In this document: positions 1-5,895 of the stretch, piece by piece
How positions within the stretch are numbered: position 1 is the stretch's first letter
Layout of the letters: each line of letters begins with the position of its first letter
Assembly (NCBI RefSeq): GCF_003987135.1
Contig: NZ_PIPJ01000002.1
Location: 496,001-560,000 of the forward strand
DNA: 64,000 nucleotides
Direction of reading: 5' to 3'
From: Aliidiomarina iranensis
Lineage (GTDB): Bacteria; Pseudomonadota; Gammaproteobacteria; Enterobacterales; Alteromonadaceae
Program-made: the position numbers and the translations under genes
Notes under the pieces: model-generated
The model's database searches: none
Seen by the model: only the letters and a program-made list of their open reading frames with translations
Told to the model about the DNA's origin: nothing

Positions 1-707
1 TCATCAATTAAAATAAGAGAATACTTCTTCGCCCTGAAAACTTTTTCGAGTATGTAAAATACTTTCTGTTCACCTGCACTCATGCTTAATGCCGAATAAC
101 GGAGTCCGTCAACTTCAACACCAATAAACTCTTTCCCCGAAGCTTCATGAACGTGATAGCTAGAGTATTTCCTGTTTAAAACAATGGATGCTTTTTCTAG
201 AATAGTATTTATTACATCTTCATTTATGACTTTGGTTGAATAGTTAATTTTTGCTTGCTTCTTCTCTGCTTCTATCATTGGCACACATTTATCAATACCG
301 ACATAGAATATATCTCTGAGAGGCCGATTCGCATACCTAGGCGTCCATCTCACTTGAGTCTTTTTATATTCCCTAGTGACATGGTTATACTCACTTTGGC
401 CTTCCCTGTAGCTATACACGATACTCATCTCACTACCATTCCATAACGCATCAGTGTTTGGCAAAAAGAACCAACTAAATTTATAGTTTTCACCTTCGTC
501 ATTTGGTGAAAATGCGCATGCTAGAGCATGCAGTATCGTTGATTTCCCATTTCCATTTGGTCCGAGAATCGCAGTTACCGGGCAAGAGTCAAAAGTAATT
601 TCTAATTCAACTAAGTTCTTCAAATTTGGAATTCTCATCGAATGTAATACTTGTTGTGAAATTGCCATGTTTATTTTCTCATTAACCTTGAACGGATCAC
701 TCGCCAT
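1..707 (-). CDS. AAA/ABC-type ATP-binding protein, truncated by window edge
   Basis: The frame is open from an ATG at 707 to base 1, giving at least 235 residues; the C-terminus lies outside the window. Walker A (GPNGNGKST, about residues 49-57), an ABC-type signature (LSMSAGEQ, about 207-214) and the start of Walker B (LILID) at the very edge are readable. The short N-terminus to Walker A and the SAGEQ signature fit RecF/SMC-like or OLD-like single-chain ATPases common in defence loci; the subfamily cannot be decided without the C-terminal half. ATG 707 has GGAA about 6 bases upstream; ATG 668 in the same frame is an alternative with a weaker ribosome site. It lies on the same strand as the hsd operon, separated from it by about 210 bases. 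Confidence 0.8.
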   Translation of the reverse strand, partial: MASDPFKVNEKINMAISQQVLHSMRIPNLKNLVELEITFDSCPVTAILGPNGNGKSTILHALACAFSPNDEGENYKFSWFFLPNTDALWNGSEMSIVYSYREGQSEYNHVTREYKKTQVRWTPRYANRPLRDIFYVGIDKCVPMIEAEKKQAKINYSTKVINEDVINTILEKASIVLNRKYSSYHVHEASGKEFIGVEVDGLRYSALSMSAGEQKVFYILEKVFRAKKYSLILID

Positions 708-918
708 TTGCGTTCCGTAACAATGGATCAATATGCATACGCAATGCATCAATCAAAGCACGTATGCTCGTTTATATTTCAGAGGAATAGTCTTTAAGAA
801 CGCTCGCACCTTGAGGAACACTGAATGAACGCCCTCCAACAGAAGTTTGATTGCTTCAAAGCTGCTTATTAAATGCAGGGAATAATACTTATTGAGGCTA
901 AAAGTCTGCAAAAAGTAA
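708..918. other. Gap between hsd operon and ATPase gene, with twin ATGCAT sites
   Basis: No convincing gene is present. The hexamer ATGCAT, itself palindromic, occurs twice at 733-738 and 744-749 separated by 5 bases, just ahead of the ATPase start at 707. This arrangement could bind a dimeric regulator, so the ATPase may have its own promoter here. A 60-codon open frame reaching into the end of the upstream gene shows no recognisable features. Confidence 0.35.
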
Positions 919-1851
919 TTATCTATTCCACGCACTTTTAATTAGCTTGCCGGTTTGATTGTAAATACCGACCTGTTCAATGTAGTGATGGAAGTCACTA
1001 TTTTCGGCAACAATTCGGTTTGCGGATTGCCAATCCACTGTTGTGCGCTCGCGCGCTGGTATCAATATTTGGCTGTCGAAGAGCGATTCAGTGTTGAGTA
1101 GTAACACGCCAATGCCGTGAAGGCTGGCGAGCATTTGTAGTTCGCCTTCTACGTCGCTGTTTAGGCCGGTTGCAACTAGATAGCCGAAGTTTGCCCAGCT
1201 TGAGTTTGAAACCGCTTGGAAAAATGACTTTCGTACATTGCTTTTGGTAAGGTGTTTTTTCACTTCAAACGACCACAAGCGCACAGCGCTTTGATTGCCG
1301 GTTCGCACACAGTCCTTCACAACGCTTTCCCAACCCATATCAAGGGCTTCGAGTGCAACGATGTCGGGATGCAGCCAATGATTGCCGCCGCTGCCGTGCA
1401 CATTTTTTGATTTTCGCTCATCGATGCGCTGGCAATATAAACCATGCTCTTTATTCAAGAACTCGATAAGCAATGGATACAAATCATGCTCACTCAAGCC
1501 TGGTGTTGTGAGCGGCGTATCGACACTTGCGTCATCAGGTTCATCATCCATTTCGGTAAGCTGCTTTGCTAACTCAGGATTAGGCTCCCAGTAATAAATT
1601 CTTGGACGCGGTTTATCTCGTGTCGTGATGTTTGGGCATTTTTCCATTGCTGTTCTTAATCTACTTCCGCCAACCTCTGCTGCCAACTGAGCGATCAATT
1701 TTTCCTCGGTGTTGTAACGAGGATTTTGTTGCTTCTCAGTAATCTCGCTTGGATAACGCTCAATAAAATACATCGCTAAATCACGAGCGGTAAAATGCTT
1801 CTCTGGATGCGCCTTAAGTGTTTCGATGATCATGTCGACGCGAGTTGTCAT
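919..1851 (-). CDS. HrgA/COG2958-like protein: winged helix plus putative PD-(D/E)XK nuclease domain
   Basis: The protein has 310 residues. Residues 1-90 look like a winged helix-turn-helix (start METLKAHPEKHFTARDLA-like, ending in PRIYYW). An acidic linker (about 92-118) leads to a C-terminal domain with HPDIV at 161-165 and FEVKK at 195-199. D163, E196 and K198 therefore form a PD-(D/E)XK pattern, followed by a helix containing Q212 and a hydrophobic strand (FGYLVAT). From memory it belongs with HrgA/COG2958 proteins, which occur beside restriction-modification genes. A nuclease role is inferred from the motif only. Its ATG overlaps the hsdS stop (ATGA), so the two are translationally coupled. 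It may be a modification-dependent partner or an accessory endonuclease. Confidence 0.7.
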   Translation of the reverse strand: MTTRVDMIIETLKAHPEKHFTARDLAMYFIERYPSEITEKQQNPRYNTEEKLIAQLAAEVGGSRLRTAMEKCPNITTRDKPRPRIYYWEPNPELAKQLTEMDDEPDDASVDTPLTTPGLSEHDLYPLLIEFLNKEHGLYCQRIDERKSKNVHGSGGNHWLHPDIVALEALDMGWESVVKDCVRTGNQSAVRLWSFEVKKHLTKSNVRKSFFQAVSNSSWANFGYLVATGLNSDVEGELQMLASLHGIGVLLLNTESLFDSQILIPARERTTVDWQSANRIVAENSDFHHYIEQVGIYNQTGKLIKSAWNR

Positions 1852-3209
1852 GAAGAACTCTCCATTTTTAATACTGAAGGAGCAACACTTAGTTCTCCAG
1901 ATAGCAGCTTTGGCAGTAATGTGTCACGCAACTGTGTTAAAGAAACATATTCATTATTCAAAAACTTTGATTTTGCAAAAAAACTAGACGTTTGCTTTTC
2001 AAGCTTCTCCATCAACTTGTTACCTCCAACAACGATTTTTAAACGCTCAAAATCCTTGGGATATATATGTGGTTGAGCAGCACCCGTCTGCATATCAAAA
2101 ATCGCTTTTTGATGATATTTTAAGCAGATATAAGCAATATAAAAATACGGCGCACTTTGCTTGCAAATGTACGAACTATCTGACGACCAAATATTTTGAT
2201 AATACAAATTCACATAGCCTGCATTCGCGCCCGATGCGCTTATTGTTATTACAGGTCCTACTACATTATGCTCCTTATGATAGTAGGCTGGTTCTATGCC
2301 ACCAGCAACTACTGGGACCTTTCCAGGTTTTGTTTTCGCTTTCGTTATACTTTTTCCCCTTTGGATATTAGCCCAGTTAGAAAAGCTAATTATTTTCCAT
2401 CCCTCCGGCACCTCCCCCAACTCACTATCCTGCATGGCGGAGGGGAAGAGTTCGGCGGTGGTACGAAGTTCGCTGTATTGCTCTGAGTTTTCGGCTCGGA
2501 GCTGGGTGAGTTGTGCTTGGTCTTTGCCGGAAATGGCTTGCATGGCGGCGAGGGTGGCGTCTTCTTGGCTGCCGCCGGCTTCTAGTGCTGCAATTTTGGC
2601 TTTAACGGGATCGAAATCAACAAACCAGCTTTTGAAAATGGCTTGAGCCATTTGTTCTAGGGTTTGATTTATTTTTCGGTTGATTTCGAGCTTTTGATCT
2701 AGAGTCGAAACAACACTAACTATTCTTTCCTGAGTATCTTTCGGCGGTACCGGAAGCTCAACTGATTTAAGCGCCACAATAGTTAGAGCTTTTTGAGTAG
2801 AGCCTATTGATACTTCGTCGAGTTTTTGTTGCGCAGTAGGTGATGTAAGCCAGTAGAAAATATAACCAGGAATTACTGAATTATTATAATTCCTCAGCCA
2901 TGTTAGATTTCCATCTTTGAAATAGAACCTATCAGTGCTCAACACTTGATATGGAACACCGAGAGTTCCAACTGAAGTTAAAAGAATATCTCCTGCTTTG
3001 GGAACTCCGAATTTACCTAGGATTTTTGAAAATTGTTCCTCTGATATAAATAGTTCAGTCGAAATATCATTTCCTTTCGAACGTTCTATCACTTCCTTTG
3101 AACGAAAGAAAGGTACGCCTGAGGTAACATAATCAGCTCGTTTAATGCGCTTGCTCGAGGTTATCTCTACTACTTCGCCCAAACGAACTAAAGGCCAATC
3201 ACAGCTCAT
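1848..3209 (-). CDS. hsdS: Type I restriction-modification specificity subunit HsdS
   Basis: HsdS determines which DNA sequence the HsdM methyltransferase (and HsdR, if present) recognises. About 453 residues show the usual layout. Target recognition domain 1 starts with WPLVRLGEVVEI; a central conserved helix follows (TLEQMAQAIFKSWFVDFDPV). Domain 2 starts with GEVPEGWKI, and a distal helix ends TLLPKLLSGELS. I place the start at ATG 3209 (MSCDWPLV), overlapping the hsdM end by 11 bases; the longer frame begins with TTG at 3224. Both recognition domains look intact, so a bipartite target is expected, but the target itself cannot be read from sequence. Confidence 0.93.
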   Translation of the reverse strand: MSCDWPLVRLGEVVEITSSKRIKRADYVTSGVPFFRSKEVIERSKGNDISTELFISEEQFSKILGKFGVPKAGDILLTSVGTLGVPYQVLSTDRFYFKDGNLTWLRNYNNSVIPGYIFYWLTSPTAQQKLDEVSIGSTQKALTIVALKSVELPVPPKDTQERIVSVVSTLDQKLEINRKINQTLEQMAQAIFKSWFVDFDPVKAKIAALEAGGSQEDATLAAMQAISGKDQAQLTQLRAENSEQYSELRTTAELFPSAMQDSELGEVPEGWKIISFSNWANIQRGKSITKAKTKPGKVPVVAGGIEPAYYHKEHNVVGPVITISASGANAGYVNLYYQNIWSSDSSYICKQSAPYFYIAYICLKYHQKAIFDMQTGAAQPHIYPKDFERLKIVVGGNKLMEKLEKQTSSFFAKSKFLNNEYVSLTQLRDTLLPKLLSGELSVAPSVLKMESSS

Positions 3210-4932
3210 ACCCCAGCCCCCCAAGATTCTTCTTAATCTCTTCCTCTAGCCTTTTGCTCTCTGCGAACTGTTCGCTCAGCTGTGCGGTGAGGCGGGCCAT
3301 TTTCTCTGTAAAGGGTTCGCCATCGTCTTCTTGCACTTTCGCGCCCACATAGCGGCCGGGGGTGAGCACGAAATCGTGCTTTTTAATGTCATCGAGGTTG
3401 GCTGATTTGCAAAAGCCGAGAATGTCTTCGTAATTTTCGCCGCGCTGCCAAGCGTGCAAGGTATCGGCTACTTTGGCGATGTCATCATTGGTGAAATCGC
3501 GCAATACGCGGTCACGCATATAACCGAGGTTACGGGCATCGATAAATAGGAATTCGTTGCGGCGATCGCGTTTTTTCTCGCTACGCACCATGCCGTTGGT
3601 TTTGTCTTTCCTTAAAAACCAAATGCAGGCGGGAATTTGCGTGTTAGTGAATAACTGCCCCGGTAAGGCCACCATACATTCCACTAAATCTTCTTCTATG
3701 AGACGTTTGCGAATTTCGCCTTCGTTATTGGTGTTCGAACTCATAGAGCCATTTGCAAGCAATATCGCCATACTTCCAGTGGGTGCTAGGTGGTGCAGCA
3801 TGTGTTGCACCCACGCAAAGTTGGCGTTGCCTTTCGGTGGTGTGCCGTATTGCCAGCGAATATCTTCCGCTAGCGATTCACTCCACCAATCTTTAATGTT
3901 AAATGGTGGGTTGGCCATCACGAAATCGGCGCGTAAATCGGGGTGTTGATCATCTAAAAAGGTATCGGCGTTTTTCTTGCCAAAGTTAAAATCAATACCG
4001 CGTATCGCCATGTTCATGGCTGCCAGCTTCCACGTGGTTGGGTTTGATTCTTGACCGTACACAGAAATGTGCTTTCTTTGTTCGCTAGCATCGTAATGGT
4101 GCTCGTTAGCGTGTTCTTCAATGAACTTATCGCTGGAAACGAAAAAGCCGCCAGAGCCCATTGCCGGGTCGTAAACGCGCCCAGAATATGGTTCGAGCAT
4201 TTCAACAATTAGAGTAACAATGCTTTTCGGCGTGTAGTACTGGCCACCTTGCTTTCCCTCTGCAAGCGCGAACTGGCCGAGGAAATATTCATACACATGG
4301 CCCAAAATATCTTTGCTGTGCAGCTCTAACTTCTCACCTTTGTGCACAGGCTTGGTGAACGATGTATCCGAAAAGGTGTTTACGAGGCCGAGTAATTTAT
4401 CGTTATCAAGTTGGTATTGGCTAATTCGATTCAAAATGCCTTTAAGTTTGGCGTTGCTCTTCTCTATTTCTTCAAGCGCGTTATCTATGAGCCACGATAC
4501 AGAACGCAATTTTACTTCGTTACCCTGCTTGCCATTTGTTGAAGGCTCTTCTCTCCAAAGCACAGAACCGATAGGTAACACTGCTTTTTCTTTCAGGGTG
4601 TTCCAACGTGCTGGTTTTGGAACCCAAAATACATTGGCTTCGCGATAATAATCGAGCACTTCTAATTCGTTTTGTAGTGCTTGTTCGTATTCAGCATCAC
4701 TATCAAAATCACTGCGCGGTAGGTAATAGATATTATCGTCGCTATCGCTTTTGAATAGCTCCAAAAGCTCCTCTTGGCGTTCTTCAAACGCATCAGACAC
4801 ATACTTGAGGAAAATGAGCCCCAACACTACGTGCTTATAGTTTGCCGCATCTAGGTTAGCGCGCAGTTTGTCAGCAGCTTTCCAAAGCTTATCGTCGAGT
4901 TCTTTTAAAAATTGCTGTTCGGTATTATCCAT
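3199..4932 (-). CDS. hsdM: Type I restriction-modification DNA methyltransferase subunit HsdM
   Basis: This is the N6-adenine methyltransferase subunit using S-adenosylmethionine. In 577 residues it carries the HsdM N-terminal helical domain (LWKAADKLRANLDAANYKH, from about 15). SAM motif I is DPAMGSGGF at 255-263 and catalytic motif IV is NPPF at 341-344. I choose ATG 4932 (MDNTEQQFL) because AGGAAG lies at the right distance; the longer frame adds 21 residues unlike the family. It starts 87 bases after the WYL regulator gene on the same strand and overlaps hsdS. No hsdR is seen in this window; it could lie further left. Confidence 0.95.
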   Translation of the reverse strand: MDNTEQQFLKELDDKLWKAADKLRANLDAANYKHVVLGLIFLKYVSDAFEERQEELLELFKSDSDDNIYYLPRSDFDSDAEYEQALQNELEVLDYYREANVFWVPKPARWNTLKEKAVLPIGSVLWREEPSTNGKQGNEVKLRSVSWLIDNALEEIEKSNAKLKGILNRISQYQLDNDKLLGLVNTFSDTSFTKPVHKGEKLELHSKDILGHVYEYFLGQFALAEGKQGGQYYTPKSIVTLIVEMLEPYSGRVYDPAMGSGGFFVSSDKFIEEHANEHHYDASEQRKHISVYGQESNPTTWKLAAMNMAIRGIDFNFGKKNADTFLDDQHPDLRADFVMANPPFNIKDWWSESLAEDIRWQYGTPPKGNANFAWVQHMLHHLAPTGSMAILLANGSMSSNTNNEGEIRKRLIEEDLVECMVALPGQLFTNTQIPACIWFLRKDKTNGMVRSEKKRDRRNEFLFIDARNLGYMRDRVLRDFTNDDIAKVADTLHAWQRGENYEDILGFCKSANLDDIKKHDFVLTPGRYVGAKVQEDDGEPFTEKMARLTAQLSEQFAESKRLEEEIKKNLGGLGYEL

Positions 4933-5019
4933 TTTTACTTGCTTCCTAATGTGAATCTTATTTTTGTAAGGCTCTCGCGTGATTTTTAAGTACAACGAAC
5001 GGGGGATTTTCGCGAGTTT

Positions 5020-5895
5020 CTAAACCTCAGCAACCGCATACCCCGGCGCCACCGCCAAATTACTGGTATTCACCAAACTAACCCGGTTCCGCAGCCACAG
5101 CTGGTATTCATGCCCTTCAAGGGTGCCATCTTCGGTGCAATCCACGTTCCAGCGGCGCAGCAGGTAACCGGCCATGGCGGCGCGCACTTCAATCGTGAGC
5201 AGGCCGCTAACCATGCCGTAATCCATTTCAATGGCGGCTTTGTGCTTTACGTTGTGCGGGTGTGGCACGAGCTGCAATGGGATCATGCGTTGCCATTCGT
5301 GATCAGCTTCGGCTTCTTCGAAGGTGTCGGCATCGTCAAGAATGCGCACTTCATGAATTCGGGTAAGCACAAAATCGCGAAAGCTCTGGGATTTACGATC
5401 AAACGCGCGCACATGCCAGCGTAAACCGTTATCGACAATCGAGTGCGGCACCAACTCACGCTCATTTTCGCCACTGGTGAGCGAGGTGTAGCGCACTAGC
5501 ACCGCTTTGCCATTCAATGTGGCCTGCACGATACGCGCCACAATGAAAATATCGGGCACGTTTAACGATGAAGGCGCCTCGACCGGAAAACGGGTATCGC
5601 CAATAGCATCGAAGCCATCGGAAATATCATTGGCGAGCTTAATCAGCGTGCGTTTGGGATCGTGCTGGAAAATAGGCGTGAAGGTTTCGGCCTGAAAGTA
5701 GCGCTTTTCTTGGGAATCGTAATACAGGTTATTCGGCGCCAGCTCTTTGTACACATTGAAATCACGCGTGCCCGCCGAAAGGCCAACCGCAAAACGCTGC
5801 ACTAAATCGTTCCGATAAATACTGCCTTTAAACAACAGGCTAAAATCAATGTAGGCCAACCGCTGCCGTTGTGCGAAAGATAGGTTTTCAAGCAT
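5020..5895 (-). CDS. BrxR/CapW-like WYL-domain transcriptional regulator
   Basis: This 291-residue protein has an N-terminal winged helix (about 1-75: QRLAYIDFSLLFKGSIYRNDLVQRFAVG region). A WYL domain follows (about 115-190) in which GLRWHVRAFD at 157-166 takes the place of the name-giving motif, then a C-terminal WCX-type extension. The size and order match the BrxR and CapW regulators that repress BREX, CBASS and other defence loci. Here it is the first gene ahead of hsdM on the same strand, so it probably controls the restriction-modification operon and itself. The ligand is unknown for this copy. Start ATG 5895 is family-consistent. Confidence 0.85.
   Translation of the reverse strand: MLENLSFAQRQRLAYIDFSLLFKGSIYRNDLVQRFAVGLSAGTRDFNVYKELAPNNLYYDSQEKRYFQAETFTPIFQHDPKRTLIKLANDISDGFDAIGDTRFPVEAPSSLNVPDIFIVARIVQATLNGKAVLVRYTSLTSGENERELVPHSIVDNGLRWHVRAFDRKSQSFRDFVLTRIHEVRILDDADTFEEAEADHEWQRMIPLQLVPHPHNVKHKAAIEMDYGMVSGLLTIEVRAAMAGYLLRRWNVDCTEDGTLEGHEYQLWLRNRVSLVNTSNLAVAPGYAVAEV

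Follow-up and report, generated by a model that had tools for sequence, protein, structure and literature searches.

The open reading frame at 919–1851 on the minus strand encodes a 310-amino-acid protein of the HrgA family, which joins an N-terminal winged helix to a predicted PD-(D/E)XK nuclease domain and whose gene is embedded in a type I restriction-modification (R-M) operon with an hsdR gene of its own. Positions refer to the window, that is, the whole stretch of 64,000 nt from Aliidiomarina iranensis that was analyzed. With slightly better than even confidence, we read HrgA as an accessory DNase of this operon that complements the type I enzyme in a modification-dependent, type IV-like manner. 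The direct basis of this reading consists of the sequence, its conservation, the predicted fold, the position in the operon and the purifying selection on the gene.

Arrangement of the type I operon

The gene preceding hrgA is hsdS (1848–3224, minus strand), encoding the specificity subunit (Methylase_S, 6.6e-28; PADLOC Specificity_I, 4.9e-89); its start codon may lie further in. Next to it lies hsdM (3199–4995, minus strand), the type I methyltransferase gene (N6_Mtase, 1.2e-111; HsdM_N, 2.6e-21), with a probable ATG near 4932 judged by eye. The gene preceding hsdM on the same strand encodes a WYL-domain protein (5020–5895, minus strand; PF13280, 1.5e-12) and is probably the operon's regulator. 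As the original prediction had described, the stop codon of hsdS and the start codon of hrgA overlap in an ATGA (1848–1851, minus strand). Both genes are probably translated together. A scan for promoters and terminators yielded nothing that exceeded chance.

The absence of a visible hsdR, pointed out in the original prediction, holds within the window but not beyond it. A full-length hsdR gene of 1050 amino acids lies on the same strand 2.9 kb before window base 1 (C12:489967-493119, minus strand; window base 1 is base 496,001 of contig C12), and a profile search of the genome contigs placed a ResIII helicase match inside it, on the same strand (C12:491,728-492,240). The apparent loss of hsdR was therefore an effect of the window edge. 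The distance between hrgA and hsdR is 3.8 kb, and this interval holds the gene of an AAA ATPase, a 126-amino-acid ORF and two ORFs on the plus strand, which by eye resemble an IS3-type insertion. The ATPase is HEC-04-like, 528 amino acids long in full, and its gene crosses the window edge (1–752, minus strand; AAA_23, 6.2e-10; PADLOC HEC-04, 1.8e-25 on the part within the window).

Judged by sequence identities, the downstream hsdR would fit as the cognate subunit gene of hsdMS. HsdM and HsdR of one relative (L013) are both 62% identical to their counterparts here, and those of another (L027) 73% and 69%, respectively; in two further loci (L018, L028) HsdM is 46–47% and HsdR 29% identical. There is no need for HrgA to complete a non-canonical type I system, as suggested earlier, since hsdM, hsdS and hsdR are all present in the operon besides it. 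In this locus and in relatives, hrgA lies between hsdS and hsdR, the position of an embedded accessory gene.

Conservation and predicted fold of HrgA

The translation and the alignment place HPDIV at residues 161–165, FEVKK at 195–199 and Q212 after them, exactly where the original prediction had put them. The codon of D163, the Asp in the PD motif that is predicted to bind metal, is found at 1363–1365, the E196-V197-K198 codons of the ExK motif at 1258–1266 and the codon of Q212 at 1216–1218, all on the minus strand. A loose PD...ExK pattern, composed after the motif had been seen, was found in 37 of 20,000 shuffles of the HrgA protein, and conservation is the better test of such a motif. P162, D163, E196, K198 and Q212 are invariant in 23/23, 50/50 and 33/33 rows of three overlapping alignments, which share sequences, include the window protein and consist of rows hand-picked among intact copies. 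The conserved PD...(D/E)xK residues of this nuclease superfamily are thus present in 50 of 50 rows, and the equivalent catalytic residues occur in all 13 rows of an alignment of the sister subclass described below. The nuclease assignment, which had been made to hinge on D163, E196 and K198, withstood this comparison. Measured against two Aliidiomarina relatives (L011, L012), hrgA shows a dN/dS of ~0.02–0.03, with dS near saturation, and is under purifying selection. HrgA is a conserved predicted nuclease and very probably active.

The core of PD-(D/E)XK enzymes follows the order alpha-beta-beta-beta-alpha-beta, with the D before and the ExK on neighboring strands. An AlphaFold2 model of full-length HrgA, based on an alignment of 50 sequences, reached a pLDDT of 84.9, and the C-terminal nuclease part modeled alone reached 89.7. 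The model consists of a winged helix (residues 1–95; 1567–1851, minus strand), a poorly predicted linker and the nuclease part (approximately residues 118–269; 1045–1500, minus strand). The latter is built from helix 124–136, strands 139–142, 164–169 and 190–198, helix 206–216 and strand 222–227, which corresponds to the core order. Strand 164–169 begins right after D163, strand 190–198 holds E196 and K198, and the helix that follows it holds Q212.

Structural comparison by VIA-align superposed residues 118–310 of the full model onto the type IIS enzyme PaqCI at a Z of 9.8, and residues 1–95 onto the winged helices of FoxO, Zalpha, Fur and LACTB2 at a Z of ~7. For the nuclease part, the matches were PaqCI (Z 9.7; 139 residues, 3.5 Å), SPO1766 (8.9), XisH (8.4), EndoMS (8.0), AF1548 (7.2), AspBHI (6.7), FokI (6.2), HindIII (6.2), MspJI (6.0) and NucC (5.7), all of which we take to have the PD-(D/E)XK fold; these Z values are middling, and the last rows (Z 4.5–4.9) contain unrelated folds. 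Foldseek returned nothing at E ≤ 0.001 for either the full-length or the nuclease-part model, and its top rows for the nuclease part were FokI and EndoMS at E 0.05–0.1. Model, motif and conservation agree with one another, and the fold claim is based on this agreement. An architecture of winged helix plus PD-(D/E)XK nuclease, proposed from the letters of the sequence, is hence well supported as a prediction, and structure modeling gave no indication of an unrelated fold.

Searches by sequence or profile were less informative. Pfam contained no family matching the window protein at E ≤ 1, and the best matches in NCBIfam (HelR, 0.14), PADLOC (Cas1a, 0.007) and PHROGs (0.22) look like chance. There was no credible match in the PDB and none in the phage collection.

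The HrgA family and its two subclasses

The designation as HrgA-like was borne out by relatives that carry the RefSeq name “HrgA protein”. Among the annotated proteins compared, from Helicobacter heilmannii and a Helicobacter sp. plasmid, the HrgA encoded on an H. heilmannii plasmid aligns over residues 121–298 with an E-value of 2e-25 and 34.8% identity. The gene was reportedly named by Ando in 2002 as one taking the place of a restriction enzyme in H. pylori.

Two subclasses can be recognized, which clearly form one family (hhalign E-value of 2.2e-56 between their profiles); membership was assigned by the better of the two profiles, which were built partly from those same sequences. In the sister subclass, Pfam finds a HARE-HTH domain (PF05066) in 9 of 13 proteins, with the H. 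heilmannii HrgA itself lacking a match. In the window's subclass the domain appears in 0 of 33 proteins at E ≤ 0.01, and the N-terminus of the window protein is likewise not recognized as HARE-HTH. The C-terminal part has no consistent Pfam match in the 46 members scanned. Chance-like matches were RlmN_N (3/33, best 0.0011) and CEP250 (1/33) in the window's subclass, and VpsR and a virus-capping connector (1/13 each) in the sister subclass.

We found relatives in 22 genome loci, 72 plasmid records, of which 13 cover at least 80% of HrgA, and 64 loci of the viral collection, counts that include some broken or partial copies. Relatives occur in 9 of 369 genomes of the class and 18 of 398 of the phylum, the own genome being counted in both. 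The possibility that hrgA is a one-off was rejected in view of these relatives in genomes, plasmids and the viral collection. Klebsiella, Enterobacter and E. coli plasmids are among the matches listed (H26–H40); these align only with residues 1–33 (1–41 in H26) at 61–70% identity and have no annotated gene beneath; the HrgA N-terminus may be conserved there as a remnant or have been reused by chance.

Linkage of hrgA to type I genes

For the linkage count we used wide-flank loci, in which hrgA is flanked by 5 kb or more to either side. A same-strand hsdR lies within 5 kb of hrgA in 40 of 56 such loci of the window's subclass, a number in which close relatives are over-represented because loci were retrieved according to their similarity to the query. 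By source, these are 16/19 genome contigs, 3/5 plasmids, 16/22 loci of the viral collection, taken by collection label and possibly not truly viral, and 5/10 further genomes. Some hsd gene is present within 5 kb in 44/56 loci and none in 12/56. After clustering, at least one same-strand hsdR case was found in 28/41 clusters at 95%, 12/21 at 80% and 7/15 at 70% identity, leaving 9 of the 21 clusters at 80% without one. Type I linkage is therefore common but not a rule, with about half of the clusters lacking an adjoining hsdR.

The count leaves out L001, L003–L010, the too short match of L032, and the short-flank loci L033–L041 and L115–L132, of which 20 places re-entered with wider flanks as L133–L152 and five (from G448, G373, G582, G717 and G640) did not. 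Also left out were loci with a best HrgA frame below 200 amino acids, while the broken copies L030 and L149, with a longer frame, were counted.

In the sister subclass, hsdR was found within 5 kb in 0 of 6 wide-flank loci and an HsdM-like gene in 2 of 6. One of these two (L138) contains a complete hsdM-S-R set, in which hsdR is 6.3 kb away, and with only six loci the contrast between the subclasses is soft.

Looking from the side of hsdR, its family is present in 57 of 369 class genomes at E ≤ 1e-100. We saw hrgA within the short flanks of 1 of the 30 best-scoring hsdR loci, whose upstream flanks span 32–2784 bases, so that the own genome, with hrgA 3.8 kb away, counts among the 29 without hrgA. 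At hsdR loci, hrgA is optional. Across 12 hand-picked loci, the median identity of HrgA is 86% and that of the respective HsdS 38%; because HrgA stays similar while HsdS differs, it should be independent of any single type I target site.

The cargo around hrgA and hsdR changes from locus to locus. We noted a HEC-04-like AAA protein with a 126-amino-acid ORF (L002:13289-16752), a GmrSD_N protein (L018:8943-10811), a Schlafen/AlbA_2 protein (L025:8946-12070), an AAA_5 (McrB-like) protein with McrC (L058:4625-7953), an FRG-domain protein (PDC-S15; L022:6639-7928) and GTPases with a PD-(D/E)XK protein and SprT (L043:2317-8950). A 331-amino-acid ORF near hrgA (L011:13460-14455) contains RPDLL...LIEFKRP and by eye looks like a Shedu-like PD-(D/E)XK protein. 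On a Candidatus Megaera plasmid (L044:8977-15422), hrgA lies ~2 kb upstream of an annotated pair of ATP-dependent endonuclease and helicase, which presumably resembles Gabija. A second kind of R-M locus with hrgA is found in L141:503-6203. There, hrgA shares an ATGA overlap with the end of a T5orf172 gene of the GIY-YIG type, and ahead of them lie genes for a methyltransferase of the MmeI type and for a protein whose helicase-C match falls just short of the cut-off; no hsd match was found in this 9.9 kb contig.

Alternative roles of HrgA

A rather unlikely explanation is a latent effector resembling PrrC: the type I complex would keep HrgA silent and set it free as a (suicidal) nuclease once a phage anti-restriction protein blocks that complex. 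PrrC resides within a type I locus, which keeps it silent (PMC2610378, PMC12707154), and hrgA is placed between hsdS and hsdR, its start codon overlapping a stop codon. Moreover, in 66 pairs from the 12 hand-picked loci the divergence of HrgA tracks that of HsdR (Spearman 0.87) and HsdM (0.84), and less that of HsdS (0.60). However, linkage alone also predicts co-divergence, and it suffices to explain the correlation with HsdS. Furthermore, there are members of the subclass without type I neighbors in wide flanks (e.g., L042, L044, L147, L148), amounting to about half of the clusters.

It is improbable that HrgA is a second nuclease subunit and cooperates with HsdR on one DNA molecule, for instance by degrading or trimming translocation products. 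The order hsdM-hsdS-hrgA-hsdR, which would suit such a partnership, is the commonest near the query and recurs in many Vibrio loci, Photobacterium, Citrobacter and Proteus, including annotated Proteus and Vibrio plasmids. Among more distant relatives, hsdR often comes before hrgA. Against such a role, the family adjoins very different HsdR proteins (~23–29% identical to the one here where mostly covered), follows an MmeI-type methylase in L141 or stands alone. The single case among the 30 best hsdR loci also speaks against this partnership.

Very improbable, in our estimate, is a fourth subunit, in which the divergent winged helix of a type I-linked HrgA would dock on HsdM2S and provide either an alternative nuclease or an effector freed when HsdR is blocked. 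The notion of an alternative nuclease is kept alive, at low probability, by two Aliidiomarina loci (L011, L012) that show hsdM-hsdS-hrgA with no hsdR within 8.0 and 5.3 kb downstream, respectively. An hsdR may be missed there because the stretches are short or have been rearranged; the one of L011 contains transposase-like ORFs by eye.

The same two loci would suit HrgA as the subunit that cuts DNA in a type I system without hsdR, the role first considered in the original prediction and one to which we now give only a very small chance. HsdR proteins join a nuclease domain to an SF2 translocase in about 1000 amino acids. HrgA, with 310 amino acids and no helicase match, is not such a protein. 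A full-length hsdR is present downstream in the own genome and in 40 of the 56 wide-flank relatives, and the candidate was rejected for this reason, even if hrgA is reported in H. pylori strains without hpyIIIR (PMC4687069). An operon regulator that uses the N-terminal winged helix and carries an inactive nuclease fold is just as hard to credit, given the invariant catalytic residues and the WYL-domain gene that already precedes hsdM.

A putative second layer of defense

We return to the preferred reading of HrgA as an accessory, modification-dependent DNase. The winged helix would bind DNA and the PD-(D/E)XK domain would cut it, using a metal ion coordinated by D163 and E196 together with K198. 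In this arrangement hrgA would be an embedded accessory gene of an operon with its own hsdR, and not a substitute for hsdR. For catalysis, for DNA as the substrate and for modification as the trigger we infer the following scenario: the winged helix may recognize phage DNA whose modification protects it from the type I enzyme, which would then be cleaved by the nuclease domain, such that one operon could cover unmodified as well as modified invaders. HrgA is probably a second defense layer against phages. The term modification-sensing nuclease, also offered in the original prediction, is plausible from architecture and precedent.

In favor of this reading we counted the GmrSD_N and the AAA_5 plus McrC proteins beside hrgA in L018 and L058, as well as the HARE-HTH domain in 9 of 13 sister proteins; against it we counted that the window protein has no HARE-HTH and that hsd genes are absent within 5 kb in 12 of 56 wide-flank relatives. 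Searches of an open-access library turned up no published account of HrgA within a type I operon. The HrgA family gains a concrete enzymatic prediction with testable residues.

Comparison with known defense systems

Several known systems resemble the HrgA locus in part, among them the fusions of HARE-HTH and REase domains, reportedly described by Aravind and Iyer in 2012, TgvAB, which we take to be a family unrelated to HrgA, and DarTG2, a DNA ADP-ribosylation pair and not a PD-(D/E)XK DNase. The HrgA proteins of Helicobacter and Campylobacter belong to the same family and share the invariant motif. They differ in that the window protein has another winged helix and is encoded in a type I operon, whereas the hrgA copies on Helicobacter plasmids have no annotated R-M gene adjoining.

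HARE-HTH plus REase fusions similarly combine an HTH of the winged-helix kind with a PD-(D/E)XK domain and are proposed as auxiliary nucleases in Dnd and BREX loci (PMC10853773, PMC12839542). HARE-HTH is there proposed to read modified DNA and its REase fusion to discriminate such DNA in Dnd loci (PMC10853773), and these proteins are listed among the auxiliary effectors in BREX loci (PMC12839542). In contrast, the N-terminus of the window protein is not recognized as HARE-HTH, and its locus is of the type I R-M kind.

A winged helix is also joined to a PD-(D/E)XK nuclease in the wH-fusion type IV endonucleases (FcyTI, Psp4BI and others), which a 2024 survey describes as m6A-dependent by experiment, with the winged helix favoring m6A in Dam context (PMC11037411). 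Their name (PD-(D/E)XK-wH) puts the nuclease first, whereas in HrgA the winged helix comes first. The same survey gives 87% of these fusions as lacking a methyltransferase gene among three genes on each side, unlike hrgA here, which adjoins type I genes (PMC11037411).

With regard to position, TgvAB is a parallel as a defense nuclease inside a type I operon. It is described as a type IV system embedded in the type I operon of Vibrio cholerae VPI-2, antiphage by experiment and protective against phages with hypermodified DNA; it differs from HrgA in consisting of two proteins (PMC11411939). DarTG2 of EPEC, embedded between hsdS and hsdR, and PrrC are likewise accessory antiphage genes within type I loci (PMC12255303, PMC2610378), PrrC differing as a tRNA anticodon nuclease and not a PD-(D/E)XK DNase. 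The locus analyzed here is of an ordinary and known kind of defense locus, with defense cargo between hsdS and hsdR, and it adds a single-gene case to the defense genes embedded in type I operons.
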